64,000 bases of DNA from Solanum dulcamara. Taxonomy: Eukaryota; Streptophyta; Magnoliopsida; Solanales; Solanaceae. Below the pieces are notes generated by a model. That model made no database searches, had not been told where the DNA came from, and saw nothing but the letters and a program-made list of their open reading frames with translations. The position numbers and the translations under genes were made by a program. Location: NCBI RefSeq assembly GCF_947179165.1, contig NC_077239.1, positions 35,110,134 to 35,174,133 of the forward strand, read 5' to 3'. The number at the start of each line of letters is the position of its first letter. The first letter of the stretch is position 1. Of this stretch, positions 6,083 to 63,699 are shown one piece after another.

Positions 6083-8814
6083 TGTCATGACCCAACCCCA
6101 TAGGCCGCGAATGGGGTCCGACCTGGACCCCCCCGACACATATCTATTAGCTGAGGTCACATTGAATCATAAATAAATAATATCATGCAACAGAGCTCCA
6201 CTGGGCGATAACATTTTCATAAACCTGTAGCCTTTTTCGTTTGTGTCACAACATGATAGGGCATGCAAGCCGACAAGGCTGCCATAACCTAATCACGTAT
6301 ATCATATATCAGGTAGACCCAGCTAAATCAAACTGACATATACAACCCACATATACAACCCACAGACCTCTAAAAATAATAATGACAATATATGGTGGGA
6401 CAGGGCCCCCGCCGTACCCTTGAATAAATAAAATAATGAAATACATCAGTGGGTAGTGCCAAAACTAGGCTCCGATATAATGCAGCCTCTTCCAGCTGAG
6501 CTAAGCGGAATCCTAAGCTGACGGACTCCTAAAACCGTACCTATACCTGCGGGCATGAAACGCAGTCCCCCGAAGAAAGGGGGTCAGTACGACATATATA
6601 CTGAGTATGTAAAACATAACATAATACAACTGGAAGCATATCTGAAGTAGAGAAACAGGGGATAAACTATCAAAATTGGATACCTGTACCTGTACTCTGT
6701 GAGTCATAAAAGCATGTATGCTCAAATTATACAATATAGCCGGCCCTTTCAGGGATCCGGTGAATCATATCTATAGTATCAGTATCAGGCCCCGTGCCAT
6801 CACCACCTTATTACAACACATCATCATCATATATAAACATACGTACCCGGACCTCTAGTGAAGGGCTCGATGGATAATGCAGTGAATTGCACGAATATGA
6901 TAACCGGCCCAGGACTCGGAGAAGAAGTGTTACAGTATACACGAGTAGAGAAGTGAGAAACCAAACACAGTTTAAATCATTATCCGAGACTCAACTATAT
7001 AAAAGGACTAAGTTATTGTTTAAGAATTCGAGTAACAGTATAGTCATTCTAGCTTCCCTCTAAGTGCCATTAGGGACTACATTAGTTTCATCTTGAGGTT
7101 CCTAGACATATACCAAAGTAGGACTATTCACCTAAGAACTCCAGAGTATTCGTCTTCAAATAATTTTATGACTAGGAGTCTGTATATTCATTAAGTCCTC
7201 AGTGTATAAAAGATTCAAGGAAATTAGCTTAACTATCATACAAGCTTTAACATTCAGAATTGAATAAGGAGCATTAAAGAATGGAATTACTTTAGGCATT
7301 ATATCACTGCTTACTTACCTCTATGACATGCCAAAAGAAGAGAAGGGACAGGCTTCACATACCTCTTATGGACTTCCCTTAGTCGTGTTTACGTCATCTT
7401 CCTCGAAACCTATTTAACACGGAAATAAGGTGAATATTAACAACCTTATATTTTTCAGCAACTTAGGCTACCTACTAGTATTCATAGCATTTATCCCCTC
7501 GCTTGCCTTCTCGACTAGTTCCTTAACTAGTTAAGGTGTTAATGGAAATCGGACAGCACCTCCCCTATAGTGTGCCATATCCGAATTTCCAACCATGTCC
7601 TTAACACCTGAAGACAACCAACAATACAACCAGCAGATCATATATATATAACGTGGCAACATTACACAATATAAATTCCAAACGACTAGCCCGAAGTTAC
7701 GATACCAAAAGAGGGTTTCTAGTTTCTATTTTGCGAAACCTTTAACCGTACGAAGCGGGGGGGTCGTGTGGATGTAACAAGAATCTCCCCCACCTAATTT
7801 ACAGAACTATTAGACCCTTCAACACGCCACAACACACCCAGAATCAGCCCCCACGGGCACAACACCTTACTTCGACAACTATTTAACTATAGCGATTCCA
7901 AATTCGTTTATTTCAAACGCCGAACTTTTCAAACCTTTTCCCCAACTTCCAGCAGACCCTAAGGTGTGTAATAAAACCTAATTTAACATTATAAACTTCA
8001 AATTAGAGGGTAAGAACTTAGATTTCCCGAAATTGGCTAGAACTCGCCGAAATCGTGCCTCGGAATTTTGTTTTAACGTGCTGAATCGTCGTGGCAGCTT
8101 GCTGTCCATTTTTTGGCTGCAAAGAACTCTAATTTTATTCTACTAATACTTCCATATCATCATGGTATACTCTATATAATTAATTTATGGAACGAAAGCG
8201 GGACTTACCTTATTTTTCTCCCAAGCCATCGCAACTTTCTCCTTAGCTCTATGGTTTGTTTTCTCTTATTTTGGCTGAAGTTTGAGGAACAAACTGAAGT
8301 ATATGATTCATATACATACATATATGTGGATGTAGGGTGTTATACGTTTCATCCCCAAGAGGTGACACATGTCCAACCCCTATTGGGCCACCGTATCTAC
8401 ATGCTGAAGGAGGGGCTACCACATGACAGTGGGGCCCACCTCCCCCAAGCAGGTGGGTCACCTACTTGACCCCAAGCAGGTGGGTCTCCTCCTTGCTTAG
8501 GTTCTTCCACGTGTCACCCTCCCATTGGCTTCCCCGCGCAATTTTTTTCCCCTCCTTGTGGGTTCATAATCTCATTCGTAATCTCGTCTCACTATAAGAG
8601 CCTATGAAATCCTTGCTACGTAAGCTTGGTATGTAATCAAGTAACTCACGTATGTAAGACTTCTAAATTAGTAGTTTACGTAACCTTCCCTACCATGGGG
8701 TGTCACCTTCTTCTTTCTTAGAGTTGTTCAATAGGGTCGTAACTTAAGTGGATCACATACCAGCTTCTAAGTAACTTAAGGAACCTTCCGAGTTCAAAGA
8801 TGTGGGATGTAACA
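6083..8814 (-). repeat. R3 3' LTR
   Basis: 2732 bp, TGTCATGACC to GGGATGTAACA on the plus strand, directly followed by the reverse complement of a polypurine tract. On the element strand, ATG at 8229-8227 in the context GCGATGGC opens six further codons and then reaches AAG|GTAAGT (donor at 8209/8208). A hairpin of five C and five G lies at 6567-6583. Confidence 0.9.
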
Positions 8815-8829
8815 TCCTTCCCCCCTTTA
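8815..8829 (-). other. R3 polypurine tract
   Basis: The minus strand reads CTAAAGGGGGGAAGGA immediately upstream of the 3' LTR start. It is the expected second-strand primer and matches the tract of R5 (32588-32600). Confidence 0.85.
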
Positions 8830-10560
8830 GAACATTCATCCTCGAATGTTAAACAAAATCTCCCTTAGAACTTTATACCAATTGTAGGGAGATTCTTTAC
8901 GATCTTCTTAATACATACTTCCCTACAAGTACTTAATATACGTATTTCAGGAGTTGGGGTTCTCGTAGACATTGGGAATAGGTGCGAATACTTGTGTTTC
9001 ATTTTCTCTTTAGCTTCTCCGGTTATCCTCTTTTTGGTTTTGGTTTTGCCACAGTATCTTGACGAAAGGCACGTCCTTAGTCTACAATCTTCCAGTTTGC
9101 TGATCTAAGATGGTGATAGGTTTTTCCTCATAGGATTTCATCTCCTGGACCTCATCTATGGGATATACTCTGGGTGGCTCATCAGTATCTTTGCGAAGCA
9201 TTCCTATCTAAGGGACTGGGTGTATAGTTTCCAAATGAGCTAGTAAGCTCAACTTACCAGCCATATTGCCCACCTTATGAGTAACTTGATACAGTCTAAT
9301 ATATTTCAGGTTAAATTTCATTTTCTAGGTGACTCCATTATGAAAGTCCAATCATCGATTTGAACTCTATATGTCGATGTCGATCATCTGTATATCATTT
9401 CTGCCGACTCTGGGTGGTTAGTCAATAGCTTGCATAATCATGTAGGGGCCTTTTTAGCTTAGTTTTTCTAACATCGGCCCATCCAATAGGGGACTTACAC
9501 GTCTTGCTCTACCAATCTTGTACGGGGCCATTGGAATACGGGAGTAATAGTTATTATTCTAGGCAACTTGATAAGTGATAGATAATCATCCCAGCTATCT
9601 TTGAAGTTAACAACACCACCTCATGACATATCTTCTAGCGTCTGATAGTATGCTCAGTCTGTTCAGCAGCTCGAAGGAAAATGCAGTACGAAGACCTAGC
9701 TGTGCTCCTAATCTCTAGATGTTAATCATAATTAAAGTCCCTCTATCTAAGATATTAACTGGGAAACCTCACGAAACCTTACCATTCTCCATGTTCTATA
9801 ACTCCCCCTAACATCAGCAGCATAGGTTCTCTTGATTTGGAAGCAAATGGGCTGATTCCTTAGCCTACTCACAATAACCCATATAGCAACCTACTCTTAC
9901 AGAGTATAAAATGGGTGCGTAATGACGTTGATAACTTGGGGTCGTTAGCCTCGTATAGTCCTTCTCGACTCTTTCCAAAACTTTAACTGGCATTCTATCT
10001 TTTGGGTTCTGCTTTTCAATCCTTAGGGTTGGCTACTAAATAATGTTGCATCCCCCTCGTGTAATGTCTCTCATACTCGTTCTATGCTTTATCTAACAAG
10101 ATCTGTTATAATTCTGACGGAATATTGGCGTATATACTCGCCATCCTGTAGTAACCGGTTATTTCTGCCTATTTCGTTTAAACTCTTTCACCACTTTCCT
10201 CACCCCCACTGGTAACCTTCTAGACATATTATCCTGTGTCATTTTCTTCCTTACAAATTGACGAGAGGGTACAAGGCGTATCCTGGCGTTATCTCGCTAG
10301 TCCTCATGTTTTACCTTGCCTTTTTATCCCTTATCCTATATTTGATGTCGGGGGAGCTCTTTGACCCAATCGTGGCCATGTATTATGTCACCTGTATTAT
10401 CAATTCCATCTCGATAGTTTGTCTTAACCTATCCTTGCATCTCTCGATAGTTAATTGTAACTTGGGCTTCTTTGCCTGGAATAATAGCTATGGGGACTCC
10501 GTAAGGTCTTACCATTTCTTCACCCTACACTTTTACACCTTCTCGGCTAAATAGGTAGCC
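8830..10560 (-). pseudogene. R3 decayed integrase C-terminal region
   Basis: The minus strand holds frame-broken remnants of a Ty3/Gypsy integrase. Near 9600-9700 are traces of the end of the catalytic core (HTIRR, then FKDSWDDYLSLI, resembling the family motif around HPQT-GQ-E). Near 9140-9300 is the C-terminal segment with GNMAGKL and RVYPIDEVQ, matching the better preserved copies in R5 (32177-32392) and R7 (44560-44760). Several stops and frameshifts mean no functional product. The conserved AACATTCG-GGACGAATGTT end before the polypurine tract is present. Confidence 0.75.
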
Positions 10561-11015
10561 TTTGATCAAAGGAGAAAGGGCCAATATCATTAATCCATGG
10601 GTAACATTCCATTAAGAGTCATCTATCGATGGAGTGTGGAATGAGTCTTGTAGTCCTGGTCATATTATGGAATTTTCGACTTTGGGAATTACTTCCTGGC
10701 TTCCATAAATTATATCAATTAGTACCCTTACCTTTTTGGGTTTTGCTTTTTTTTTTCTTTTTCGCCCTCGGAGTTGGCTGCCAATGGTGTCGAAATTCCC
10801 TCGCCCACTGGCCCATATAGTCATTTTATGGTTTTCCTTTCATTAATTGGTTCTATGTTGAAGAGCTGTGGTATTTGAGTGTGTCGTCAGTTAGCAATTA
10901 GCTAATCCTTCTTGTTTTGCTTAAGCCCTTGTTACAATTGCCTTAACGTATCTTATAATACTCTAGGTACATAATCTCATATTGTTTCTCCGTTGCTAGT
11001 TCAGATTTCTCAATC

Positions 11016-11135
11016 TCGCGCGGTCAGACCAGCACTAATTCATTAAGTTCCATCAGAATTTTGAAGTTAAGCGTGCTAGGGTGAGAGTAATATTGGGATG
11101 GTTGACCTCCCTGGGAAGTCTTCATGTCGCGTTTC
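11016..11135 (+). rRNA. 5S rRNA-derived sequence inside R3, antisense to the element
   Basis: Aligns end to end with plant 5S rRNA over 120 bp; identity is roughly three quarters by hand against a consensus recalled from memory. The best part covers the internal control region: GTTAAGCGTGCTAGGG-GAGAG corresponds to the A box and intermediate element, and GGGATGG-TGACCTCC to the C box. It starts like 5S (GCG-TCA-ACCAGCACTAAT) and ends GGAAGTCTTCATGTCGCG. The C box has a G to T change and an extra C follows CTCC. The following bases are TTTC, so no four-T terminator remains. It is probably not a functional rRNA gene, but the length and full span are striking. Confidence 0.85.
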
Positions 11136-11758
11136 ATTGTAATCCTTGCCATAATGTGTGGGGCACTCGACTTAGCTCCAGATTTACCTTAGCGTTGTCT
11201 CGCGAGTCTTTATGTTTAGCCTTGTCCTTTTGTCTGTTATCTTGCATCCAGTATCGGCGTAGACCTTTAGTTCCACGATCCTTTATTCACTTTGTGTTAT
11301 CCTCATTTTCTACCATAGGAGGCTTTCTATTCCTCTTTCTTTGATTATTTATCTATCGCAACATCATTTGCGACTAACTCTATAACCAATATTTTGGCTT
11401 TTGGTCTAGCATGTTGTCATTATCCTTTGTAATGTCTCTTAAGTTGATTGATATCCTTTCATGGTTACACTGTTTTGTTTTTATACGCAGCCGCCTTCTA
11501 GTGTTATGTTTTTCAGGGTCTCGTCACAACTTCTTATCGCTGCCTTATGAGCATTCTGGCTTCCATCCAATTATTGGTAGCTTCCGGACCTTTATAACTT
11601 GGTTCGGCAAGATATCTTATTGAAGTTTAGACGTCCATCCCAAATATATTGCCATATCAGTTGTCTTCTCCTATTTTTGCTATTTTCTTACTAACTTCTC
11701 CCCTTTAGAGGGTACTTGTACTTTCATTTATTGGTGCTTGTAGGCGTTCTAACTTCAA

Positions 11759-11962
11759 CTAGACAGTGCTAGTATTCTGACGATAACTATTCCAAGTTTT
11801 CTCGAAGTAGTGGCTTTGTCCCAACCTATATCCTTTGATTCTTGGGGTGAATAGAAGTTGCGTCATTTGTTCCTTAAGTTTTCCATCCTCGTCCCTTAAG
11901 GGTTCCACTATTTTTGGGGCAACGTTGTGTACATGCGTCATTTTTTGTATCTTAAGCCCCAT
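11759..11962 (-). CDS. Small sense reading frame of unknown function in R3 (67 aa)
   Basis: An open frame in the element's sense direction, between the antisense frame and the 5S sequence. I do not recognise it. It contains VEPLRDEDGKLKEQ, a charged, helix-prone segment. A decayed homologue in R5 (about 30373-30560) keeps VEPLRDED-KLKE with stops, and R10 has a weaker trace near 60740-60850. It may be a fragment of a former gag N-terminus, but no gag signature or zinc knuckle is visible. It could also be chance openness in homologous DNA. Confidence 0.4.
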   Translation of the reverse strand: MGLKIQKMTHVHNVAPKIVEPLRDEDGKLKEQMTQLLFTPRIKGYRLGQSHYFEKTWNSYRQNTSTV

Positions 11963-12537
11963 GCTCTTACTGCTTTCTCAACGCATGCCTTTAACTTAGT
12001 CAACGCATACTAAGTGCGTCTTACTAGTGGTTCCACTTTATCCCTGCATACTCGTATCACACTGTTCAATTCATACTTACATATCGATATCCCTCTTTTA
12101 GTTCGTATTCGTATTCAGTTCCTGACATCTCTTTGAGGTATTTCTATTAGAAGGTCTTTCCCCAAATTAGTCAATGGAGAACTATAAATTGTTATCATAA
12201 ATCATTTTCCAACCATTGTTGGAAGAAATCAAAACCCCCTAAACATCACAGTACTCTTGAGTTGAGGGCTTGGTATTTTTTTCAAAAAGAGTGAAACTCA
12301 TTCGCGGGACATCTTATCCTTCATCCCGAGTCCTCAGTTTATATTTCTACAGTACAAATATGGCTGGAGATACCGTAGTCTGAACTTTACTACTTAAATA
12401 AGCTTTTGTTCCTTCGAAATAAAATTCTTCAAGTGAAAAGGGTACCCCTTATCAGCGACCTGAAGGATACCTCTTACAGCTTTGGTTAAACACAGTAGGG
12501 GTACTTGGTATCAATTTCTCAAACATCTTAAAATTCT

Positions 12538-12918
12538 ATGCTTCATTTCCTTTTCCCCATTCTGGGAAAAAATTCGGTAGAGTTTCCTCTACACTTCTTA
12601 CTATCCCATAACCTGCACGCAGAAAACGCCAACAATGCCTCACTGGGCCAACACACACATATACATATTCATGTCATATCACAGCCACACAGGGTTTTCA
12701 ATGTCAATACTAACATAAAAATACTGGATTTACCTCGTATGTCCAACTTCAAACTGCATCTGTTGCACTTCCTGTCTGCTTTCCTTTCAGGTTTCAACTT
12801 TATATTTCAATACCTTACCCGACGAATATCTTCTGTGGCTTTACTTTACTTACCTACATGCTTCGTAACTTTCCCTATCGTCAATTACCTCCTTCTATTG
12901 GTGTCTTCTTTCTGTTAA
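12538..12918 (+). CDS. Conserved antisense reading frame in R3 (126 aa, unknown)
   Basis: Open on the strand opposite to the element, ending about 180 bp from the primer binding site. Rich in Leu, Phe, Ser and Tyr, with a hydrophobic C-terminal stretch and the central motif VISQPHRVFNVNT-IKILDLPR-SN. R10 has a co-linear 168 aa frame with ISQPHGAFNINN-MKIMDLSHVSNSN, and R5 keeps the C-terminal 70 or so codons and the same stop. Function unknown; shared openness could reflect DNA homology and low stop density rather than selection. Confidence 0.4.
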   Translation: MLHFLFPILGKNSVEFPLHFLLSHNLHAENANNASLGQHTHIHIHVISQPHRVFNVNTNIKILDLPRMSNFKLHLLHFLSAFLSGFNFIFQYLTRRISSVALLYLPTCFVTFPIVNYLLLLVSSFC

Positions 12919-13095
12919 GATCCAAGGTTAGTATAAGGAATTTTCCTATGACTCGGATGTAAAGCACGATCTCAGATGTAGAAGAAAAGTAACATCCTAA
13001 ATGTCTTGTAGGTTCCTGTTTATAGATGTGGAGCGCAACACATCTATAGCCAAGACTCTACTAGACACGGTCTGTAGACACTCCAAGGACGAATT

Positions 13096-13107
13096 GCTCT
13101 GATACCA
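13096..13107 (-). other. R3 primer binding site (initiator tRNA-Met)
   Basis: The minus strand reads TGGTATCAGAGC, an exact match to the complement of the plant initiator tRNA-Met 3' end, separated from the 5' LTR by GAAG (13108-13111). Confidence 0.93.
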
Positions 13108-13111
13108 CTTC

Positions 13112-15895
13112 TGTCACGACCCAACTTCGTAGCGACTGGGGTCCAACCCGGACCCTCGAACACATATCTATTAGCTGTGGTCATATTGAATCGTAAATAA
13201 GATAATATAATGCAATAGAGCCCCACTAGGCGATAACATTTTCATAAACCTATAGCCTTTTTCATTTGTGTCACAACATGACAGGTCACGCAAGCCGACA
13301 AGGCTGCCATAACCTAATCATATATATCATATATCAGGTAGACCCAGCTGAATCAAACTGATATACACAACCCACACATACATGTCTGCAGACCTCTAAA
13401 AATAATAATGACAACATATGGCGGAACAGGACCCCCGCCGTACCCCTGAATAAATAAAACGATGATATACATCAGTGGCTAGTGCCAAAACCAGGCTTCG
13501 ATACAATGGAGCCTCTTCTAGCTGAGCTAAGCAGAATCCTAAGCTGACGGACTCCCAAAACCGTACCTATACCTGCAGGCATGAAACGCAGTCCCCCAAA
13601 GAAAGGGGGTCAGTACGACATATATACTGAGTATGTAAAACATAACATAATACAACTGGAAGCATATTTGAAGTAGAGAAACAGGGGATAAACTATCAAA
13701 ATTGGATACCTGTACCTGTACTCTATGAGTCATAAAAGCATGCATGCTCAAATTATACAATATAGCCGGCCCTTTCAGGGATCCGGTGAATCAGATCTAT
13801 AGTATCAGTATCAGGCCCCGTGCCATCGCCACCTTATTACAACACATCATCATCATATATATACATACGTACCCGGCCCTCTAGTGAAAGGCTCGGTGGA
13901 TAATGCAGTGAATTGCACGAATCTGATAACCGGCCCAGGACTCGGAGAAGAAGTGTTACAGTATACACGAGTAGAGAAGTGAGAAACCAAACACAATTTA
14001 AATCATTATCCGAGACTCAGCTATATAAGAGGACTAAGTTATTGTTTAAGAATTCGAGTAACAGTATAGTCATTCTAGCTACCCTCTAAGTGCCATTAGG
14101 GGCTACATTAGTTACATCTCGAGGTTCCTAGACATATACCAAAGTAGGACTATTCACCTAAGAACTGCAGAGTATTCGTCTTCAAATAATTTTATGACTA
14201 GGAGTCTATATATTCATTAAGTCCTCAGTGTATAAAAGATTCAAGGAAATTAGCTTAACTATCATACAAGCTTTAACATTCAGAATTGAATAAGGAGAAT
14301 TCAAGAATGGAATTACTATAGGCGTTATATCACTGCTTACTTACCTCTACGACATGCAAAAAGAAGAGAAGGGACAGGCTTCACATACCTCTTATGGACT
14401 TCCCTTAGTCGTATTTACATCGTTGTCCTTGAAACCTATTTTACACGGAAATAAGTCGAGTATTAAAAACCTTAGATTTTTCAGCAACTTAGGCTACCCA
14501 CTAGTATTCATAGCATTTATCCCCTCGCTTGCCTTCTCGACTAGTTCCTTAACTAGTTAAGGTGTTAACGGAATTCGGACAGCAGCTCCCCTATAGTGTG
14601 CCCTATCCGAATTTCCCAACCATGTCCTTAACACCTGCAGACAACCAACAATACAACCATCATCTCATATATATATAACGTGGAAACATTACACAATATA
14701 AATTCCAAACGACTCGCCCGAAGTTACGATACCAAAAGAGGGTTTCTAGTTTCTATTTTGCGAAACCTTTAACCGTACAAAGCGGGGGTCATGTGGCTGT
14801 AACCAGAAGCTTCCCCACCTCATTTAGATAACTCTTAGACCCTTCAACACGCCACAACATAACCAGCAGCATCCCCCACGCGCACAACACCTTACTTCGA
14901 CAACTATTTAACTATAGCGATTACAAATTCGTTTATTTCAAACGCTGAACTTTTCAAACCTTTTCCCCAACTTCCAGAAGCCCCTAAGGTGTGTAATACA
15001 CCCTAATTTAACATCATAAACTTCAAATTAGAGGGGAAGAACTTACCTTTCCCGAAATTGGCTAGAACTCGCCAAAATCGCACCTCGGAATTCTTTTTTA
15101 GCGTGCTGAATCGTCGTGGCAGCTTGCTGTCCGTTTTTTGGATGGACCGAACTCTAATTTTATTCTACTAATACTTCCATATCATCATGGTATATGATAT
15201 ATAATTAATTTACGGAACAAAATTGGGACTTACCTTATTTTTCTCCCAAGCCGTCGCAACTTTCTCCTTAGCTCTAGGGTTTGTTTTCTCTTATTTTGGC
15301 TGATATTTGAGGAACAAACTGAAGTATATGATTCATATACATACATATATGTGGCTGTAGGGTGTGACACATGTCATCCCCAAGAGGTGACACATGTCCA
15401 TCCCCTATTGGGCCACCGTATCTACATGCTGAAGAAGGGGCTGCCACATGGCAGTGGGGCCCACCTCCCCCAAGCAGGTGGGTCACCTACTTGACCCCAA
15501 GCAGGTGGGTCACCTGATTGCTTAGGTGATGCCACGTTTCACCCTCCCATTGGTTGCGCCGCGCAATTTTTTTTCCCTCCTCGCGGGTTCGTAATCTCGT
15601 CTCACTTTAAGAGCCTATGAAACCCTTGCTACGTAAGCTTGGTATGTAATCAAGTAACTCACGTATGTAAGACTTATAAATTAGTAGTTTACGAAAATAA
15701 GTTGAGTCCTACGACTCGTTACTTGGCCTCCAACTCCTTTCGGCTTCTCTTGACCCTATTTCCAACCTTCCCTACCATGGGGTGTCACCTTCTTCCTTCT
15801 TAGAGTTGTTCAATAGGGTCGTAACTTAAGTGGATCACATACCAGCTTCTAAGTAACTTAAGGAACCTTCCGAGTTCAAAATGTGGGGTGTAACA
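13112..15895 (-). repeat. R3 5' LTR
   Basis: 2784 bp, TGTCACGACCC to GGGGTGTAACA on the plus strand. The leader start codon present in the 3' LTR is ACG here (minus strand, near 15253). A stem of five C and five G lies at 13593-13609. Near 15370-15400 are GTGACACATGTC-type degenerate copies of the G-box palindrome. Confidence 0.92.
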
Positions 15896-25613: not shown

Positions 25614-26111
25614 TCAACTGTTACACCCCACTCTTTTTAAACTCGGAATGTCTCATAAGTTCCTTGGACATTATCATGTGAGCCGGATACGCTACGACAC
25701 TATGAAACAGCTCTAAGAAAGGGAGAATGTGATACCCCATAGTAGAGAAGGTTGGAGATGAAATCATAAGAGTTCGGAAGGAATTGGAGGCCAAGTAACG
25801 AGTCGTAGGACTCGACTTATCTATGTAAACTATTAAGTTAGAAGTCGTACATATGTGAGTTACTTGATTACATACCAAGCTTGTGTAGCAAGGATTTCAC
25901 GGGCTCTTAAAGTGAGACGAGATTACGAACGAGATTATGAACCCAAAAGAAAGAGAAATTTTTTTTGCGGGGAAGCCAATGGGAGGGTGACACATGGCAG
26001 AACCTAAGTAGGCAGGTGACCCACCTTCTTGGGGGAGGTAGACCCCACTACCACGTGGCAGCACCCTATTGGCCATATGGTTGAGGTGGCCCAATAACGG
26101 CCTGATAGGGT

Positions 26112-26138
26112 GACACGTGTCACCTCATATATATATAT
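26112..26138 (+). promoter_or_regulatory. R5 5' LTR putative promoter: G-box palindrome and TATA-like tract
   Basis: The perfect palindrome GACACGTGTC (26112-26121) is followed 5 bp later by an ATATATATATAT tract (26127-26138). The same pairing occurs in the 3' LTR (33136-33145, then 33151-33160) and in R10 (56827-56860, then 56880). ACGTG is the bZIP/bHLH core. Promoter function is inferred from position. Confidence 0.5.
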
Positions 26139-26238
26139 GTGTGTATATGACTCTTTATGTGTTCATTTATCCAAAATCAGTCCAAAAACAACAGCAACAT
26201 AGGGAGAAAACATGAGAAAGAGAGATAGGGAGGCAGCC

Positions 26239-26264
26239 ATGGCGTTTGAAGTTTAAAGGTAAGT
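26239..26264 (+). other. LTR leader mini-ORF and 5' splice donor
   Basis: AGCCATGG gives a good plant start context; ATG is followed by GCG TTT GAA GTT TAA, then AAAG|GTAAGT (donor between 26258 and 26259). An identical copy lies in the 3' LTR at 33259-33284. Related LTRs keep the ATG and donor with different codons between them, some without the stop. Confidence 0.5.
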
Positions 26265-29135
26265 TTCTCAATTTTTTCTCCGTGAATTAATTATATACGA
26301 TGTTCCTAAAATATGTGGAGGTGTATATATGTATATTAAGATGCTTACGGAACTATATTTTTAGTTCTACACTTGGAAAACTAAGAGAAACTTAAAGAGA
26401 AAACGCTAGTTAACAAACCCCATTTTTGGAAGGGACAGTGATTAGTAATATTGGTATAACTTCTTGTATATAGCTTAGTTTTGGGTGATTCAATATGTTT
26501 TGGCAATTTATTTCATATTTCTATAACTTTCATTTAGACTCCAAAATCCAGTTTTACTTTTATCATCTCAAAAAAGGGTAATGAAGTGTAGAGGAGGTAC
26601 TGCCCAGATTTTGGTTTTGGAAATCTTACAGGGACTGCTGTTGGTGTTTCGGTTATATATTTTCGTACAAAATTATTGTAGGGGTAATTCAATTTTTTTT
26701 TTGACCTTGATACACATGTCTATAAATTTCATTGAGGACACAAATCCTATTTCCCTCAATTACCCCTCCGAAACTAAGTGACAATATAAGACAGTGGGCT
26801 GTCTAGATTTCACATTTTGGATAGTTTTGGCGAGTTTGACAAGTTTAATGTAAGGTAAGACTTTTCCTTTTAAATTTGAGTTTATGGTATTGTTATATGG
26901 TGTATTACACCCCTTGTATGCTGCTGGAAGTTTAAGAATGTCGTAGAAATGCTCGACATTCGAAATAAACTAAATTGGAATCGCTATAGTTAAATTGTCG
27001 TCGAAGGATAGTGTTGTTCATGTGAGGTGCTGCTGCAGGGGTTTGATGTATTGTTACAGGGCCTAAATATGTTCTAATGTGAGTTAGGGTGCTTCTAGTG
27101 GAATCCACACGACCCCTCATTGCGTATAATGAAAGGCGTTACAAAATAAAGGCTAGACGCCCTATTGTGCTACCGTATCTTTGAATAAGTCGTTTGGAGT
27201 TTATGTTATATATTGTTGGTCCAAATTGATGAAGGTTGTTGTTGTTGGTTGGCTGTAGGTCTTAGGGACCTAATTGGAAATTTGGATAGGGCACATTATA
27301 GGGGAGGTGCTGCCCAATTTTCGTTGACGCCTTAGCGAATAACAGAACTAGTCGGGGAAACGACTAAGGAAATGGATTCCATTAATACTAAGATGTAACC
27401 TAGGGTGCTGGAAAGTAAAAGGCGTTGATATTAATACTACTTTCATGTTGAATAGGTTCAAAGGACGGCGAGGCAAGCAGGATAAGAAATAATTCAGACA
27501 AGGTATGTAAAGCTTTCTCTTGGCATATTTTGGTATAAGTTCGTACAAGTATCTTTCTTTCATTTTGGCAATGTTTAGCCTTAAGTGGATTGTTTATGAA
27601 GTGCGGGGATAATTCCATTCCCAGGATTCCAAGTACGCCTCATGACCCCTACCCACTGCTCAATATTAGAGTTCCTGTGAAGATTAAGTATTGCCTAGTA
27701 GGGCTTCTATGTGTCAGAATGTAATGTATAGGAAGCTATCTCTCATTTTCATTAAGATGTATTTGATATGAAAATGATGTTACAATGCCATAGTGGTTCA
27801 CCGAGTCCCGTGAAGGGCCGGGTACAAAATATGTATATGAAGATCACCTGAAGGAAAGTACAGACTATATAGAGCTTATTCTCTTTCTTCTTGTGGGGCA
27901 TGTCCTTGTCTTAGTTGTAAGTTGAATTTGATCTGAACTCCGAGGTAACTCCATTCTTAAACATCTCTTAATTACTTTTGAATATTAAACTCCTATAGTA
28001 GTTGAACTACTTTCCCTGGAAACTTTTATACGTTAAAGAGGTAACAAATGTACAGGCTCTACAACCTAAGGACTATAAGGTAATAAGTGTTTCTGATTCC
28101 ATAAATGATTTGGCCCTATGTTAATACATGTCCAGGGCCTCCAAGATTACTTTTGAGACAACCCATAATGGCTTTTAAGGGACACTCGAGATGACTACAC
28201 CGTTACTCGGGTTCTCAAATAAAAGCTTAAATTTCTTATTCTGTCGAGTCTCTGATAATGATTTAAATTGCATATAGTTACTCACTACTCTACTCGTGTA
28301 TATTGTAACACTTCTTTCCCTGAGTCCTGGGCCAGGATATGGTCTTGTGCACAGTTCACTGCATTATTCCCTGAGTCCCTCAATAGAGGGCCAGGATACG
28401 TGTATAGATATATGATGATGTGTTGTAATAAGGTGGTGATGGCACTGGGGCCATGATGGTTTTACATAGGTGATTCACCGAACCCCCGAAAGGGCCGGCT
28501 ATATGATATGACTCAAACATGCATGTTTTTGAAATTCACAAAGTATAGGTACAGGTTTCTGAATTGATATCTTATCCTCTGTTTCTCTATCTCAGATATG
28601 CTTCCGGTTGTATTATATTATGTTTTACATACTCAGTACATATATCGTACTGACCCCTTTTCTCGAGAGGCTGCGTTCATGCCCGCAGGTACAAATACAG
28701 ATTTTGGGAGTCCATCAGCTTAGGATTCCATGTAGCTCAGTTGGAAGAGCCTCCATTATATCAGGGCCTAATTTTTGATACTGTCCACGGATGTATAAAA
28801 ATTATTTCATCCATTCAGGGGTACGGTGGGGGCCCTGTCCTACCATATGTTCTTATTTATATGTTTAGAGGTCTGCAGACATGTATATGTGGGTTGTATA
28901 TGTCAGTTTGGTTCAGCTGGGTCTATATGATATATTGTATATGTTGTTATGTTATGGCAGCCTTGTCGGCTGGCGTGCCCTGTCATGTTGTGATACAAAC
29001 AAAAAGGGCTACAGGTATATGTAAATGTTATTGCCCAGTGGGGCTCTATTACATGATATTGTTTTATTTATAGTTCAATGTGACCACAACTGTCGGACCC
29101 CAGTCGCGACCTACGGGGTTGGGTCATGATAGAAG

Positions 29136-29147
29136 TGGTATCAGAGC
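29136..29147 (+). other. R5 primer binding site (initiator tRNA-Met)
   Basis: Exact TGGTATCAGAGC, four bases (GAAG) after the LTR end. Confidence 0.95.
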
Positions 29148-29322
29148 AGTTCATCCTTAGAGTGTCTGTAGACCGTGTCTAATAGTCTTGGTTATCGATG
29201 TGTTGCGCGCCATATCTATAAACAGGAAGCTATAGAACATTTAGGATGTTACTTTTCTTCTACATCTGAGATCGTGCTTTAGATCCGAGTCATAGGAAAA
29301 TTTCTTATACTAACCTTGGATC

Positions 29323-29723
29323 TTAACAGAAGGACGACACCAATAGTAGGAGGTAATTGACGACATGGAAAGTTACGAAGCATGCAGGTAAGTAAAGTAA
29401 AGCCACGAAAGATATCTGTCGGGTAAGGTATTGAAATATAAAGTTGAAACCTGAAAGAAAAGCAGATAAAAAGTGCAACAAATGTAGTTTTGAGTTGGAC
29501 ATATGAGGTAAGTCCAGTATTTTTATATTATTGTTGACGTTGAAAGCCCTGTGTGGCTGCGATATGAGATGACATTGAAAGCCCTGTGTGGCTGTGACAT
29601 GATATGTATATATATATATATATATATGTTGTCCTTGTGAGGCATTGTTGGTATTTTTTTGCGTGCAAGTTTTGAGATAGTAAGAAGTGTAGAGGAAACT
29701 CTACCGAAATTTTCCCAGAACAA
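29323..29723 (-). pseudogene. R5 copy of the conserved antisense reading frame (frame-broken)
   Basis: Minus strand. The upstream part (29523-29723) reads MSQPHRAFNV and then shifts, coinciding with a local duplication of a GACATTGAAAGCCCTGTGTGG-like segment (about 29538-29600). The downstream part is open as FNVNNNIKILDLPHMSNSK, ends VSSFC and stops at 29325-29323, the same stop as in R3. A TA dinucleotide run lies inside (about 29603-29626). Confidence 0.4.
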
Positions 29724-30372
29724 GGAAAAGGGAATAAAACGTAGTTTTATAACATGTCTTGGAAATTGATACCGAGTACCCGCATTATGCTAAAGTAAAG
29801 TTGTAAGAGGTACTCTTCATGTCGTCAATAAGGGACACCCTCTTTACTTGGGGAAGGTTATTTCGAAGAAACAAAAGTCTGTCTGAGCAGTACAGTTCAG
29901 ACCGCAGTATCTCCAACCGTAATTATGTTGTAGAACAACAAAAGAGAAGCTCAAGTTGAAGGGTAAGATGTCCAGTAATTGAGATTCACTCTTTTGAAGG
30001 TACCAAGCCCCCAACTCCTATTATAAATTAGATGAGTTATTCATAACTCGAGGGTACACTCGGAAGGGGACCAGGTAGGTCAAGTATTAACAGAAGTACT
30101 ATAATGTTTAAGAAATTTTGGTTTCTTCCAACAATGGTTGGAAAATGATTTATGGTAATAGTTTATAGTTTTCCACCGACTAATTGGGAAAAGAACTCCT
30201 AACGGATGCATCTCAGGAGATGTCAGGGACGAATACTAATTAAAAAGGGGATATGTAAGTATGAATTGAACAGTGTGATACGAGTATGTAGGAACAAAGT
30301 GGAACCACTAGTAAGACACATTTAGTACGTGTTGACTATGATAAAGGCCTGCGTTGAGAATGCAGTAAGAGC

Positions 30373-30560
30373 ATGGGGCTTAAGATAAAAAAAATGAAAT
30401 GAAAAATGACGTGTGTACACAACGTCGGCCCAAAAATGGTGGAACCCTTAAGGGACGAGGATGAAAAACTTAAGGAATAAATGGTGCAACTCCTATTCGC
30501 CCCAAGAAGCACATGATATAGGTTGGGATAAAGCTACTACTCCAAGGAAACCTTATAGTC
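30373..30560 (+). pseudogene. R5 decayed copy of the small sense frame
   Basis: Homologous to the 67 aa frame of R3. It reads MGLKIKK, then HNVGPKMVEPLRDEDEKLKE and a stop, with further stops downstream. Function unknown. Confidence 0.4.
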
Positions 30561-31204
30561 GGAATACTAGCACTTCCTAGTTGGAATTGAAATGACTACA
30601 AGTACAAACAAAGGAAAGTATGAGTACCCTCTAAAGGGGGAAGTTAATGAGAAAATGGCAAAAGTAAGATGAAGGCAATCGATATGGGAATATATTTAAG
30701 ATGGACGTCTAAACATCAACAAGATATCTTACTGAACCAAGTTAGAAAGGTCCGGAAGCTACCAATAATTAGATGGAAGCCAGAATGCTACATAAGGCAG
30801 CGTTAGGAAGTTTTTGACGAGACCCTGACTAACATAACACTAGAAGGCAACTGCGGATAAAAACAAAAGAGTGTAACCATGAAAGGATATCAACCAACTT
30901 AAGAGACATTACGAAGGATAATGACAACATGCTAGATCAAAAGCCAAAATGTTGGGTATAGAGTTAGTCGCAAATTATGTTGCGATAGATAAATAATCAA
31001 AGAAAAAGGAATAGAAAGCCTCTTGTGGTAGAAAATGAGGAGAACACAAAGTAAATAAAGGATCGTGGAGCTAAATATCTATGCCGATACTGGATGTAAG
31101 ATAACAGACGAGAGGATAGGGCAAAACATAAAGACTCGTGAGACAATGTTGAGGTAAATCTGGAGCTAAGTTGAGTGCCTGCACCTCATGGAAAAGGTTA
31201 CAAT

Positions 31205-31324
31205 AAAACGCGACACGAATACTTCCCATGGAGGTCACCCATCCCAATATTACTCTCGCCCCAACACACTTAACTTCAAAATTCTGATGGAACTTAATGC
31301 GTTAGTGCTGGTGTGATCGCGCGA
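31205..31324 (-). rRNA. 5S rRNA-derived sequence inside R5, antisense to the element
   Basis: Minus strand, 120 bp, aligning end to end with plant 5S rRNA. It keeps ACACCAGCACTAA near the 5' end, GTTAAGTGTGTTGGGGCGAG (A box region, with changes), GGGATGGGTGACCTCC (C box region, almost intact) and TGGGAAGTATTCGTGTCGCG at the 3' end. Immediately after, the minus strand has TTTT, as expected of a Pol III terminator. It shares derived changes with the R3 copy, for example TTCCATCAGAATTTTGAA in place of the normal ATCCCATCAGAACTCCGCA. Confidence 0.88.
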
Positions 31325-31734
31325 GATGGAGGAATCTGAACTTGTGATGGAGAAACGATATGAGATAATGTACCTAGAGTATTATAAGATATGTTAAGGC
31401 AATTGTAATAAGGGCTTAAGCAAAACAAGAAGGATTAGCTAATTGCTAATTGACGACGCACTCGAATGCCACAACTCTTCAACATAGAACTAGATAATGA
31501 GAGGAAAACCGCAGAATGGCTATATGGGCCAGTGGGCGAGGGAATTTTGACACCACTTGGTAGCAAACTCTAAGGGCGAAAAAGCAAAACCCAAAAAGGT
31601 AAGGGTACCAGCTGATGTAATTTACGAATGACAGGAAGCAGTGCCCAAGGTCGAAAATCCCACAATATGACCAGGACTACAAAACTCATTTTGCACTCCA
31701 GCGCCAAATGACTCTAGAGGGAAGGTTACTTGTG

Positions 31735-32580
31735 GATTAATGATATTAGTCCCTGCTCCTTCGATCAAAGGTTACCTACTCCTCCGAGAAGGTGTAAAAT
31801 TTTAGATTAAAAGAGTGGTAGGACCTTACGGAGTCCCCACAACTATTGTCCTAGGCAAGGGAGCCCAAGTTGTAATTGACTATCGAGAGACACAAAGATA
31901 GGTTAAGCCAAATTACCGAGATGGAATTAGTGCTACTGGTAGAGTAAGACGTGTAAGTCCCCTAGTGGATGGGTCGATATTAGAAAAACTAAGCTAAAAA
32001 GGACTTGACATGATTAAGCAAGTTGTTGACTAAAAGCCCAGAGTCGGCAGGAATGATATACAGATAATCGTAATCGACATACAGAGTTCAAGTTGATGAT
32101 TGGATGTTCATCATAGGGTCACCTAGAAAAGTAACTTAGCCCAAATTATATTAGATGGTATCAAGTTGCTCGTAAGGTGGGCAAAGTAGCCGGTAAGTTG
32201 AACTTACCACCTTATTTGAAAACTATACGCCTAGTCCCTCAGATAGAAATGCTTCGCAAGGATACTGACGAACTACCTAGGGTATATTCCATAAATGAGG
32301 TCCAGGAGATGGAATCCTGTAAGGAAAAAAAAACTACGGCCATCTTAGATCCGCAAGGGATGTTGGAAAAACTGAAACCAGAAAGAGGATGATTGGGGAG
32401 CTGAAGAGAACATAAAATACAAGTATTTGCACCTGTAATCGATATTTACAGGTAACCCCGATTCCTAAAACACATATATGATGTATTGGTATGGAAGTAC
32501 GTGTTAAAAAAATAGCAAAGAATCTCCCTACGATTTGTATAAGGTGCTAAGAGAAGTTTTATCTAACATTCGGGGACGAA
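31735..32580 (+). pseudogene. R5 decayed integrase and C-terminal segment
   Basis: Plus strand. Around 31810-31870 is GPYGVPTTIVLGKGAQ, aligning to the integrase core around the second catalytic Asp (R10 has YGVPIAIVSDEGA); the Asp is Gly here. From 32177 to 32392 is open GKVAGKLNLPPYLKTIRLVP, MLRKDTDELPRVYSINEVQE, the integrase C-terminal segment. It ends in GGGGACGAATGTTCT before the polypurine tract. Multiple stops. Confidence 0.78.
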
Positions 32581-32587
32581 TGTTCTA

Positions 32588-32600
32588 AAGGGGGGAAGGA
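32588..32600 (+). other. R5 polypurine tract
   Basis: AAGGGGGGAAGGA immediately upstream of the 3' LTR TGTTACACCC. Confidence 0.9.
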
Positions 32601-35600
32601 TGTTACACCCCACCCTTTTTAAACTCGGAATGTCTCATAAGTTCCTTGGACATTATCATGTGAGCCAGATACGCTACGACACTATCAAACGGCTCTAAGA
32701 AAGGGAGAATGTGATACCCCATAGTAGAGAAGGTTGGAGATGAAATCATAAGAGTTCGGAAGGAATTGGAGGCCAAGTAACAAGTCGTAGGACTCGACTT
32801 ATCTACGTAAACTACTAAGTTAGAAGTCGTACATACGTGAGTTATTTGATTACATACCAATCTTGCGTAGCAAGGAATTCAAAGACTCTTAAAGTGAGAC
32901 GAGATTACGAACGAGATTACGAACCCACGAGGAAGAGAAAAAAATTTGGCGGGGCAGCCAATGGGAGGGTGACACGTGGCAGCACCTAAGCAGGCAGGTG
33001 ACCCACCTGCTTGGGGTCAAGTAGGTGACCCACCTGCTTGGGGGAGGTGGACCCCACTGCAACATGGCAGCACCCTATTAGCCGCATGGTTGAGGTGGCC
33101 CAATAAGGGCCTGACACATGTCACCCTTAGGGGATGACACGTGTCACCTCATATATATATGTGTATATGACTCTTTATGTGTTCATTTATCCAAAATCAA
33201 TCCAAAAACAACAGCAACATAGGGAGAAAACGTGAGAAAGAGAGATAGGGAGGCAGCCATGGCGTTTGAAGTTTAAAGGTAAGTTTCTCAATTTTCTCTC
33301 CGTGAATTAATTATATACGATGTTCCTAAAATACGTGAAGGGGTATATATGTATATTACGATGCTTATGGAACTATATTTTCAGTTCTACACTTGGAAAA
33401 CTAAGAGAAACTTAAAGAGAAAATGCTAGTTAACAAACTCGTTTTTGGAAGGGACAGTGATTAGTAATATTGGTATAACTTCTTGTGTATACCTTTGTTT
33501 TGGGTGATTCAACATGTTTTGGAAAGTTATTTCATATTTATATAACTTTCATTTATACTCCAAAATCCAGTTTTACTTTTATCATCTCTAAAAAGGGTGA
33601 TGAAGTGTGGAGGAGGTACTGCCCAGATTTTGGTTTTGGAAATCTTACACGGACTATTGTTGGTGTTTCGGTTATATATTTTCGTACAAAATTGTTGTAG
33701 GGGTAATTCAAAATTTTTTGATACCTTGATACATATGTCTATAACTTTCATTGAGGACACAAATCCTATTTCCCTCAATTACCCCTCCGAAACTAAGCGA
33801 CAATATAAGACAGTGGGCTGTCCAGATTTCACATTTTGGATAGTTTTGGCGAGTTTGACAAGTTTAACGTAAGGTAAGACCTTTCTTTTTACATTGGAGT
33901 TTATGGTATTGTTATATGGTGTATTGCACCCCTTTTATGATTCTTTAAGTTTAAGAATATCGTAGAAATGCTCAACGTTCGAAATAAACTAAATTGGAAT
34001 CGCTATAGTTAAATTGTCATTGAAGGATAGTGTTGTTCATGTGAGGTGCTGCTGCAGGGGTTTGATGTGTTTTTGCTGGGCCTAAATATGTTCTAATGTG
34101 GGTTAGGGTGCTTTTAGTTGAATCCACACGACCCCTCGTTGTGTATAATGAAAGGCGTTACAAAATAAAGGCTAGACGCCCTATTGTGCGACCGTATCTT
34201 TGAATAAGTCGTTTGGAGTTTATGTTGTATATTGTTGGTCCAAATTGATGCAGGTTGTTGTTGTTGGTTGGATGTAGGTCTTAGGTACCTAATTGGAAAT
34301 TTGGATAGGGCACATTATAGGGGAGGTGCTGCCCAATTTTCGTTGACGCCTTAGCGAATAACGGAACTAGTCGGGGAAACGACTAAGGAAATAGATTCCA
34401 TTAATACTAAGATGTAACCTAGGGTGATGGAAAGTAAAAGGCATTGATATTCATACTACTTTCATGTTGAATAGTTTCAAAGTACGGCGAGGCAAGCAGG
34501 ATAAGGAATAATTCAGACAAGGTATGTAAAGCTTTCTCTTGGCATGTTTTGGTATAAGTTCGTACAACTATCTTTCTTTCCTTTGGGAAATATTTAGCCT
34601 TAAGTGGATTGTTTATGAAGTGTGGGGATAATTCCATTCCCAGGATTGTAAGTACGCCTTATAACCCCTACCTACTGCTCAGTATTAGAGTTCCTGTAAA
34701 GATTAAATATTGCCTAGTAGGGCTTCTATTTGTCAGACTATAATGTATGGGAAGCTATCTCTCATTTTCATTAAGATGTATTTGATATGAAAATAAGGTT
34801 AAAATTTCATATTGGTTCACCGAGCCCCGTGAAAGGCCGGGTACGAAATATGTATATGAAGATCACCTGAAGGAAAGTACAGACTATATAGAGCTTATTC
34901 TCTTTCTTCTTGTGGGGCATATCCTTGTCTTAGTTGTAAGTTGAATCTGATCTGAACTCCGAGGTAACTCCATTCTTAAACATCTCTTAATTACTTGTGA
35001 ATATTAAACTCCTATAGTAGTTGAACTACTTTCCCTGGAAACTTTTATACGTTAAAGAGGTAACAAATGTACAGGCTCTACAACCTAAGGACTATAAGGT
35101 AATAAGTGTTTCTGATTCCATAAATGATTTGGCCCTATGTTAATACATGTCCCGGGCCTCCGAGATTACTTTTGAGATAACCCATAATGGCATTTAAGGG
35201 ACACTCGAGATGACTACACCGTTACTCGAGTTCTCAAATAAAAGCTTAACTTTCTTATTCTGTCGAGTCTCTGATAATGATTTAAATTGCATATAGTTAC
35301 TCACTACTCTACTCATGTATATTGTAACACTTCTTTCCCCGAGTCCCGGGCCAGGATATGTTCTCGTGCACAGTTCACTGCATTATTCCCTGAGTCCCTC
35401 AATAGAAGGCCAGGATATGTGTATAGATATATGATGATGTGTTGTAATAAGGTGGTGATGGCACTAGGGCCATGATGGTTATATAGAGGTGATTCACCGG
35501 ACCCTCGAAAGGGCCGTCTATATGATATGACTCGAACATGCATGTTTTTAAAATTTACAAAGTACAGGTACAGGTTTCTGAATTGATATCTTATCCCTTA

Positions 35601-36175
35601 TTTCTCTATCTCAGATATGCTTCCAGTTGTATTATATTATGTTTTACGTATTCAGTACATATATCGTACTGGCCCCCTTTCTCGGGGGGCTGCATTCATG
35701 CCCATAGGTACACATACAGATTTTAGGAGTCCGTCAGCTTAGGATTCTATACAGCTCAGTTGGAAGAGGCTCCATTGTATCGGGGCCTAGTTTTTGATAC
35801 TGTCCACGGATGTATAAAAACTATTTCATCCATTTAGGGGTATGGTGGGGGCCCTGTCCCTCTATATGTTGTCATTTATATATTTAGAGGTCTGCAGACA
35901 TGTATATGTGGGTTGTATATGTCAGTTTGGTTCAGTTGGATCTATATGATATATTGTACATATTGTTATGTTATGGCAGCCTTGTCGGCTAGCGTGCCCT
36001 GTCATGTTGTGATACAAACAAAAAGGGCTATAGGTATATGTAAATGTTATTGCCCAGTGGGGCTCTGTTACATGATTTAATTTATTTACAGTTCAATGTG
36101 ACCACAACTGATAGATATGTGTACAGGGGGTCCAGGTCGGACCCCAGTCGCGACCTACGGGGTTGGGTCGTGACA
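32601..36175 (+). repeat. R5 3' LTR
   Basis: 3575 bp, TGTTACACCCC to GGGTCGTGACA, followed by the TCAAC target duplication. It keeps the same promoter-like block, mini-exon (33259-33284) and R/U5 hairpin (CCCCC at 35673-35677 and GGGGGG at 35684-35689). Confidence 0.95.
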
Positions 36176-56244: not shown

Positions 56245-56826
56245 TGTTACACCCTATACTTGTATACCTTGGAACGCGTTCTTAAGTCTCTTGAAAGGCT
56301 CTTAAGTTTCATGGAAGGATCGTAAGCCTCTTAAGTTTCTTAAGGTTTCCTAATTTCTTAAAGCTTCTAAAAGCTTCTTAAGAGCTCTTAATCTTCTTAA
56401 GAGTTTCCATGTGAGATGGATAATCTATAATGCTATCAAACAACTCTAAGGAAAGGAGAATGCGATACCCAATAGTAGGGAACATTAGAAATAGAGTTAT
56501 AAGAATCCAGAAGAAGTTGGAGACCGGATGATGAGTCATAGGACACAAGTTATTTATGTAAGATATAAACTTGGAAATCTTACATACTTAAACTACTTGA
56601 GTACATACCAAGCTTACGTAGCAAGGATTACATAAGTTCGTAAATTAAGATGAGATTACGAAGCCACGAGGAGAAGAAAAGAGCAACACGTGGAAGCATG
56701 GGGGAGTGCCATATGGAAGTAAGATGGAGGTGCCACGTGGCATCATCTGCAGCAAGGGGGTGGGCCCCACTTGCCACTTGGATGCCCCTAAGTGGAGGAG
56801 GTGGTGCGTTGGCCCTATGAGGGCTT

Positions 56827-56888
56827 GACACGTGTCACCACTTGGGGTTTGACACGTGTCACCTCCTAAAGTGGCCTCTATATATATA
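56827..56888 (+). promoter_or_regulatory. R10 5' LTR putative promoter: two GACACGTGTC palindromes and TATA-like tract
   Basis: Identical palindromes spaced 24 bp start to start, followed 20 bp later by TATATATATA. Same layout as in R1 and R5 LTRs. Function inferred from conservation and position. Confidence 0.5.
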
Positions 56889-58639
56889 ATTTATGAGTTT
56901 AAGTTCATATTTATCCAATAAGTCTCATCTTCATCCAAGAATAGTCTAGAAAAACAAAAAGAAGAGAAGAGGTACTTAAGCTAGAAAGAAGAAAGAGCTA
57001 TAGTTTTGGGGGGAGAAAAAGGTAAGTTCTCCAATTCTGTTCTGTGAGTTAATTATATGGGGTATAAACCAAAGGTATTAAGGTGTCATTAATGTAAATT
57101 TATGGTTTGTAGCATCCCCAAATGGACAACAAACAGCCACGAAGTTTCAGTCAGGCTAGAAGATCTTACGAGGTAAGTTTTGGCGAGTTTTGGACAAAGT
57201 AAGGCTTTCCATTTCATCATAAAGTTTATGATGTGTTTATGGGGTCTTAAATAAGTCTGGAAGTGGAAAAATTGCATAAGGATGCTTGACATTAGAAACA
57301 AACTAAATTGAAGTCGCTAGCGTTAAATCGAAGTCGAGTAGTGTGTTGTGATTGTGGTGCTGCGGTTGTAGCTGGTTGGATGGCGTGTTGAAGGGATGTA
57401 TAGTTTTTTAATAGGGGTGTGGGTACGTCTGGTTGTATCCACATGACCCTCCATTTCATATTGTTAAAGGTTTTATGAAATAAAGATTAAAAATTCTATT
57501 TTCGTATAATAGTTTTGAGCTAGTTGTTTGGAGTTGTATTGTGTAATGTTGAGGTGGTTTACTTGTATATATGACGCTGGTTGTTGTTGTTGGTATGGTT
57601 TTTGACACTGTGGATGAGTTGAAACCTTGGGGATGTTGAAGTTACAGGGGAAATGCTGCCTGATTTTTGGTTGCATCAGAACTAGTAATAAGCTAGTCGA
57701 GAGTAATGGATAAGGAAATGACTCCTATTAGTACTTGGTTGTAGAGTGGGATATTGTAAAGTGAAAGGCTATTAATCTTAGTATTACCTTCATGTAAAAT
57801 AAGTTAAGTATGTGAAGCTTACCCTTTCTTTCTTTTGGCATATCTTAACCATAAGTGATTGATATACGAAATGTGGGGATAATTCCATTCATATAACTTC
57901 AAGTATGACTCATAAGTCTTATTCGCTTCTTGATAGTAGAATTCCTATACTAGTTGAGTTATTTCCTCTCAAGGCTTCTATATGATGGAGAGTAGTAAGT
58001 ATGCGAAGTTATTTCCTTTCTCCTGACATATTTTTGCATAACTACTTAGAGCTACCCTTTTTTCCTCTTGATATGTCTTTAACATAAGTGTGGTTATATG
58101 ATGGTAAGGTAATGCAATAATAAGGTTATGATACCGAGCCCATGATGGGTCGGGTACAATATATGTAATAATGACTCCTTGAGGAAAGGTAAAGACTAGG
58201 TAAAGCTTATTCTTTCTCTTCTTTTGGCATGCCCTAATTGTAAGTAAAATGTGATACGAGTTCTGGGGTAACTCCACTTTTAAGTCCTAAATGTAATCTG
58301 TATATCTTATTCACTCCTAAATGTCAAACTCTTGTAGTAAGTTGAACTACTTTCCTGGAAATCCATAGGTTGAGAAGTACTGGACGCATAAGCTTCTAGT
58401 TCTAAGGACTATGTGAAGACGGGTATCCCTAATTCTATGAACTATTAGTAAAACTTTAGTACATGTCTAGGTTCCCCGAGATCCTAAGTGATATAGGCCT
58501 CAATGGCATTTAGAAAGCAATCGAGATGGCTACACTACTATTCTGGTCCTCGGACGATAGCTTAATCTTCTTACATTTTCGAGTCTCTGATAATGATTTA
58601 GATTGTATATGGTTACTCACTACTTGATTCATGTATACT

Positions 58640-59746: not shown

Positions 59747-59758
59747 TGGTATCAGAGC
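59747..59758 (+). other. R10 primer binding site (initiator tRNA-Met)
   Basis: Exact TGGTATCAGAGC after the GAAG spacer. Confidence 0.95.
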
Positions 59759-59919
59759 GGTTTGGTCCTTGAAATGTCTATAGATCGTGTCTAGTAGAGT
59801 ACTATTTATCGGTGTGTTGTGCACCACATCTATAAATAGGAGACTACAAGATATTTAGGATGTTACCTTTCTTTTACATCTAAGATCGTGCGATAGATCC
59901 AAGACATAGGAAAAACTCC

Positions 59920-63560: not shown

Positions 63561-63685
63561 TTGGTACTCTGATCGTGATGGCTCAATGAAAGTATATGTT
63601 ATTGCAATGGAACAGAGAAACTTTTCATATAGTCTGTATAAGATCTCGAGGAAGGTTTTGGTTCTCATTCGAGGACGAATTTTCT

Positions 63686-63699
63686 AAAAGGGGGAAAGA
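63686..63699 (+). other. R10 polypurine tract
   Basis: AAAAGGGGGAAAGA directly before TGTTACACCCTG, preceded by GAGGACGAATTTTCT. Confidence 0.9.

Follow-up and report, generated by a model that had tools for sequence, protein, structure and literature searches.

An antisense 5S rRNA-like sequence in the internal region of large gypsy-type LTR elements of Solanum dulcamara

In PMC10853983, PMC7215508 and PMC10886601, 5S-derived sequences are placed either in SINEs or in the LTRs of short retroelements, namely Cassandra and Ajax. A locus of Solanum dulcamara raises the question of how 5S-like sequences came to lie in the interior of large gypsy-type LTR elements, antisense to them, and whether they have a role there. 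The window, meaning the whole 64-kb stretch of DNA analysed, was 38% GC and packed with related LTR sequences. A cmscan of the entire window against Rfam returned three matches, each to the 5S rRNA family RF00001 over model positions 1-120, and nothing beyond these three at E values up to 1. The matches fell in three elements, designated R3, R5 and R10 (Table 1), where the initial annotation had placed three full-length copies, and their E values ranged from 2e-10 to 4e-7. The claim that the whole of the 5S is spanned held for the Rfam model in all three copies, while the first three bases mismatched the plant 5S sequence used as the reference in all 5S comparisons. Identity to this reference was 90/121, 91/121 and 97/122 alignment columns for R3, R5 and R10, respectively, and the R10 copy had a 31-nt stretch, ending with the C box, of exact identity to it.

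Table 1. Positions in the window of the three elements, their 5S-like sequences and associated features
Feature	Position	Strand	Basis and remarks
R3 full-length element	6083..15895	-	LTR pair and TSD; 9813 bp
R3 LTRs	13112-15895 (5'), 6083-8814 (3')	-	92.55% identical over 2604 columns, K2P 0.067
R3 primer binding site	13096..13107	-	exact TGGTATCAGAGC
R3 5S-like sequence	11016..11135	+	RF00001 60.4 bits, E 3.5e-10; antisense to R3
R3 integrase C-terminal to chromodomain-like remnant	8941..9647	-	tblastn with P0021
R5 full-length LTR element	25619..36175	+	LTR pair and TSD; 10557 bp
R5 LTRs	25619-~29133 and 32601-36175	+	92.1% identical, K2P 0.063
R5 primer binding site	29136..29147	+	exact TGGTATCAGAGC, initiator tRNA-Met type, just after 5' LTR
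R5 5S-like sequence	31205..31324	-	RF00001 61.4 bits, E 2e-10; antisense to R5
R5 integrase C-terminal remnant	31943..32456	+	tblastn with P0006 and P0021
R10 element, cut by window end	56245..64000	+	LTR starts, primer site
R10 LTRs	5' 56245-~59742, 3' from 63700	+	LTR starts 87.7% identical over 302 columns
R10 primer binding site	59747..59758	+	exact TGGTATCAGAGC
R10 5S-like sequence	62035..62154	-	RF00001 48.8 bits, E 4.1e-7 (62154-62037); antisense to R10
R10 integrase remnant, mid catalytic core to chromodomain-like C-terminus, with stops	62534..63552	+	tblastn, PF24626

R3 and R5 inserted separately, and each is complete. Both had LTR pairs with TG...CA ends and a perfect 5-bp target duplication on either side (TTTGT for R3, TCAAC for R5), and in R5 a purine tract preceded the 3' LTR. 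Their insertion was dated to ~2.4-2.6 million years ago from LTR divergence at 1.3e-8, an often-used substitution rate for plants. The 3' end of R10 lay outside the window and target duplications were scorable for R3 and R5 alone; R10 had TGTTACACCC at both LTR starts and GGTCATGACA at 59733. The element length of about 10 kb proposed earlier was found for R3 and R5 (9.8 and 10.6 kb), largely because their LTRs are 2.7-3.6 kb long, and the internal region itself came to just ~3.5-4.3 kb.

Primer site and 5S were on opposite strands in each element (+ and - in R5 and R10, - and + in R3), at distances of 2069 bp in R3, 1972 bp in R5 and 2288 bp in R10. The antisense polarity and the spacing of about 2.0-2.3 kb given in the initial annotation were thus confirmed in all three elements (measured range 1.97-2.29 kb), as was the presence of an integrase remnant downstream of the 5S in each. 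There was one 5S per element, and in 3/3 elements it was internal and outside the LTR. A primer-site-like sequence with two mismatches was also located at 61738-61749, in element sense and ~300 bp before the R10 5S, and we estimate that a few such matches would arise by chance.

The assignment of the family to gypsy was supported by the Pfam match PF24626 in R10 (E 7.9e-11) and by the integrase remnants in all three elements. The R10 remnant aligned by tblastn to residues 347-684 of P0003 in three pieces, and the integrase ends of R3 and R5 were shorter. R10 and R3 aligned to the C-terminus of P0021, where that protein carries PF00385, a domain not reached in R10. Among the best 120 of 195 relatives of the integrase piece, the top 15 were metagenome proteins (55-56% identity over 40% of the query), Solanaceae accounted for 47 of the 64 organism-named rows, and the best organism-named relative was from Solanum dulcamara itself (53%).

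Between primer site and integrase end, tblastn detected no reverse transcriptase, RNase H or N-terminal integrase in R3, R5 or R10. A Pfam profile scan of pieces of R10 and R5, covering the forward frames of R10 and the six frames of R5 29750-31950, gave no match to gag or to other pol domains ahead of the integrase; strongly decayed genes could escape detection by either method. The filler gave no Pfam match above the cut-off in the three forward frames of R10 59760-62300 (PF13920, at E 0.093, was below it) or in the six frames of R5 29750-31950, and a protein search with a 54-aa ORF running across the R3 5S had no matches. The elements look non-autonomous. Over the scanned regions (for R3, by tblastn), they match LARDs in being large and in having an internal domain without detected coding, and on sequence grounds the carrier is most aptly described as a non-autonomous, LARD-like derivative of a chromovirus.

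Several other repeats and remnants lay in the window. Of a related copy at ~3484-232, the window took in just 230 bp of the internal region, and its 5S region lay outside. Another, at ~54386-41379, retained a leader with primer site (51750-51294) as well as an integrase end (44803-44460), separated by LTR pieces, the 5S region being gone or never there; nested in its LTR sequence was a solo LTR of the related family (45991-49684) with a perfect GTAGT duplication. On the minus strand, a gypsy element (19245-24283) contained remnants of the reverse transcriptase-to-integrase part (by tblastn, 21741-19245); its primer site, at 24283, had one mismatch, and the repeats at 16652-19198 and 24327-25305 may be its LTRs. 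A lone integrase remnant at 37896-38730 (plus strand) belonged to a further element, with no nucleotide match to the internal regions of R3, R5 or R10 at E 1e-8. Tandem repeats at 920-1230, 45668-45951 and 58652-58826 had in common the unit core ATGCCCGGCCCTTCATGGGACGCGGTGAA and variants of it, and repeats with this core recurred on both strands inside the LTRs of several copies. All three related copies that could be scored in this one 64-kb window carried the 5S.

A comparison of the three copies indicated how the 5S was acquired. Around it, ~850 bp aligned colinearly in R3, R5 and R10 with few gaps and none within the 5S, which bears out the flank homology described earlier. Relative to the plant 5S reference, nine derived bases were common to all three copies, twelve further ones were found in R3 and R5 only, one in R3 and R10 only and two in R5 and R10 only; the many changes that R3 and R5 had been said to have in common thus number twelve beyond the nine three-way ones. 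The competing explanation, that a 5S sequence was inserted independently at the same spot in each element, is extremely improbable, since a simulation of independent decay (n=5000) gave a mean of 1.26 three-way shared derived bases and a maximum of 6, and since the flanks are homologous up to both 5S borders. Nothing was found in its favour, and it was disfavoured on account of the derived bases common to all copies, unless these are present in the host 5S itself. Homologous flanks together with the nine shared derived bases point to one capture that was then propagated, as the initial annotation had proposed. K2P distances in the ~850-bp block were 0.17 for R3-R5 and 0.34-0.37 for R10 against either; since the R3-R5 value exceeds the divergence between each element's own LTRs (0.067 and 0.063), the 5S was already part of the replicating lineage when these elements inserted. 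Further from the 5S, R10 had no similarity to the R3 and R5 filler from 60330 to ~61210, so the homology was not extended to the whole filler, and after ~61210 the similarity was weak (local scores of 87 and 81 against shuffle maxima of 62 and 53).

As to what the captured sequence is, we consider it probable that the 5S is a passively carried pseudogene in a LARD-like chromovirus derivative. A chromodomain-type Ty3/gypsy ancestor (Tekay/Del-like) would have lost its genes up to mid-integrase, and the loss would have been filled by DNA without detectable coding that included one complete antisense copy of a 5S gene or transcript. The derivative keeps its LTRs and primer site as well as a polypurine tract and the 3' end of the integrase gene, so that its genomic RNA, presumably a Pol II transcript, was presumably copied in trans with proteins supplied by an autonomous relative. 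As passive cargo, the 5S would ride along and decay as a pseudogene. It may have entered by DNA insertion or repair involving a 5S gene copy, or by a template switch onto 5S rRNA, which during plus-strand synthesis would produce the antisense polarity; a near full-length antisense 5S would fit template switch and repair insertion equally. In keeping with passive carriage, identity in the 5S was nearly equal to that in the right flank for R3-R10 (87/120 versus 412/588) and R5-R10 (88/120 versus 404/577). Counting against it, the R3-R5 identity in the 5S (107/120) was somewhat above that in the right flank (486/587).

The initial annotation had also suggested a relic of integration at 5S genes, a reading that is disfavoured because the 5S lies ~2 kb inside the element and away from its border. 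A Cassandra-type short element or solo LTR inserted in the ancestor is a distinctly unlikely source. Cassandra is the known plant 5S-bearing retroelement, its promoter core is the best preserved part of its 5S, as it is here, and some Cassandras are described in PMC10853983 as having similarity regions of more than 100 nt. The same source gives ~70 bp, however, as the unit that every Cassandra shares, and the similarity here covers nearly the whole 120 nt. No TG...CA ends with a 5-bp duplication surrounded the 5S in R3 or R10, and R5 had one isolated match that the other copies did not share. In the 200 bp that follow the 5S downstream, no copy had TGGTATCAGAGC in 5S sense with up to two mismatches, a pattern that had 8 matches in the whole window. 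An insertion of a 5S-derived, SINE3-like SINE in the ancestor has a parallel in the proposal, in PMC10886601, that Ajax and Cassandra arose by SINE3 insertion into a TRIM. It is nevertheless very doubtful in the present case: none of the three copies had exact direct repeats of 8-14 bp in the 60 bp next to the 5S ends, and no A-rich or simple tail was seen by eye in the 5S flank. Both origins were left unsupported, as the searches for TG...CA ends with duplications, direct repeats and primer sites found nothing common to the copies, with the qualification that old duplications and insertion marks may have decayed.

The remaining question was one of function. The 5S may instead have been retained as a Pol III internal promoter whose boxes are bound by TFIIIA and TFIIIC, a reading to which we give a modest chance; at the same level of likelihood, its effect would be to produce a short antisense RNA or to keep the element accessible, aiding the spread of the family. 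A plant 5S gene has a TATA-like box at -28 and C at -1. The C at -1 was present in all three copies, but no TATATA-like box was seen by eye at -28 in any of them; ATATT/ATATC stretches occurred near -35 in R3 and R5 and had no counterpart in R10. The final four bases of the R5 5S were TTTT, but R3 and R10 had no T run at the 5S end, their first TTTT following at +93 and +81, respectively. Under the box definitions given for Cassandra in PMC7215508, R5 matched both box A (RGTTAAGYRHGY) and box C (RRRATRGGTRACY), the sole such pair in the window, but box C failed in R3, which had box A only, and box A failed in R10, which had box C only. The complete set of -28 TATA-like box, both internal boxes and terminal T run was found in none of the three copies.

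Tests of constraint on the internal control region (ICR) of the 5S gave divided results, and those for R3, R5 and R10 are not independent as the copies are kin. Identity to the plant 5S reference was higher in the ICR than in the remaining 5S of R3 (37/43 versus 53/77, Fisher P 0.028), R5 (37/43 versus 52/77, P 0.020) and R10 (40/43 versus 55/77, P 0.0036), the difference in R10 counting against passive carriage. When substitutions were redistributed with base type held, P values rose to 0.067 for R3 and 0.118 for R5, and R10 stayed at 0.005, again counting against passive carriage. Three-way invariance in the ICR was 0.79, a value reached by 6.3% of flank windows. The pairwise ICR identities were reached by fractions of 0.253 (R3-R5), 0.256 (R3-R10) and 0.0 (R5-R10) of 664 overlapping flank windows, so that the R5-R10 value (0.884) exceeded all of them, which likewise counts against passive carriage. 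On the other side, R3-R5 had no ICR excess (38/43 versus 69/77 elsewhere in the 5S) and R3-R10 a small one (34/43 versus 53/77, P 0.16). Of 34 base pairs in the 5S, 5 were broken in R3, 4 in R5 and 11 in R10, against random means of 7.7, 6.9 and 8.4; the slightly lower breakage in R3 (P 0.10) and R5 (P 0.07) counts against passive carriage. RNA structure was rejected as a conserved trait, since pair breakage showed no consistent constraint across the three copies.

With both boxes in one of three copies and constraint tests that disagree, the evidence for the captured Pol III promoter with antisense RNA put forward in the initial annotation is weak and mixed, and a promoter function of the 5S is possible. 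We conclude that passive decay accounts for most of the data. A further reading, which we regard as unlikely, is that the antisense 5S acts as a cis element, either by binding TFIIIA or Pol III in the interior of the element or as a stretch of the genomic RNA that pairs with 5S rRNA, the gain being escape from silencing or packaging. In R10, the antisense stretch is perfectly complementary to plant 5S rRNA over 31 nt. If this reading were true, a Pol III module would act from the interior of a large element, in contrast to Cassandra, whose module is LTR-borne.

Among known systems, Cassandra TRIMs are similarly non-autonomous LTR retroelements with a 5S-derived sequence and the primer site TGGTATCAGAGC. 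In PMC10853983 and PMC7215508 they are described as ~600-900 bp long and without gag/pol, with the 5S at about mid-LTR, whereas here a single antisense 5S is internal to elements of ~10 kb with LTRs of 2.7-3.6 kb; neither a 5S within the LTR nor a length below ~1 kb was found (R5 10557 bp, R3 9813 bp). LARDs, as defined in PMC7215508, are likewise large, have an internal domain without product and are presumably trans-mobilised, but the elements described here also keep an integrase 3' remnant and carry a 5S. According to PMC3605345, the Tekay chromovirus Bongo of beet likewise has a 5-bp TSD, a primer site of tRNA-Met type, LTRs 2.5-3 kb long and coding that stops before the 3' LTR with a chromodomain-like end; unlike in Bongo and Tekay, the reverse transcriptase to mid-integrase part is undetectable here and a 5S is present. 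The likeness to Tekay is a fit in LTR length, element length and ORF end alone, as given for the Tekay entries of the beet chromovirus table in PMC3605345. Ajax, a nemertean TRIM, and SINE3 also hold 5S-derived sequence within a retroelement, but in Ajax it is in the LTR of short elements (PMC10886601). Ty3 and other elements that target Pol III genes are likewise gypsy elements associated with such genes, and differ in inserting beside them, as described in PMC5911963, the 5S here being inside the element.

A scan with one pattern of viral and prokaryote contig collections, which may not include the genome that the window comes from, returned 0 further copies, and related-locus searches with P0003 and P0017 returned 8 and 15 pattern-matching stretches, respectively, none of which was confirmed. 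Among the matches listed, drawn from the titles and abstract starts of open-licence literature, an antisense 5S inside a large gypsy element was undescribed, and the earlier statement that no description was known stands for that literature.

An antisense internal 5S in a large LTR element is an unusual arrangement. It means that a large retrotransposon has carried and multiplied a 5S sequence, in antisense, within its own body, which sets it apart from the Cassandra model with its LTR-borne 5S. Copies of this sort could pass for 5S rDNA in repeat clustering, in cytogenetics and in Pol III or small-RNA mapping. The copies, all three from one 64-kb window, also form a dated series for asking if a captured Pol III promoter stays functional in a Pol II-driven element.
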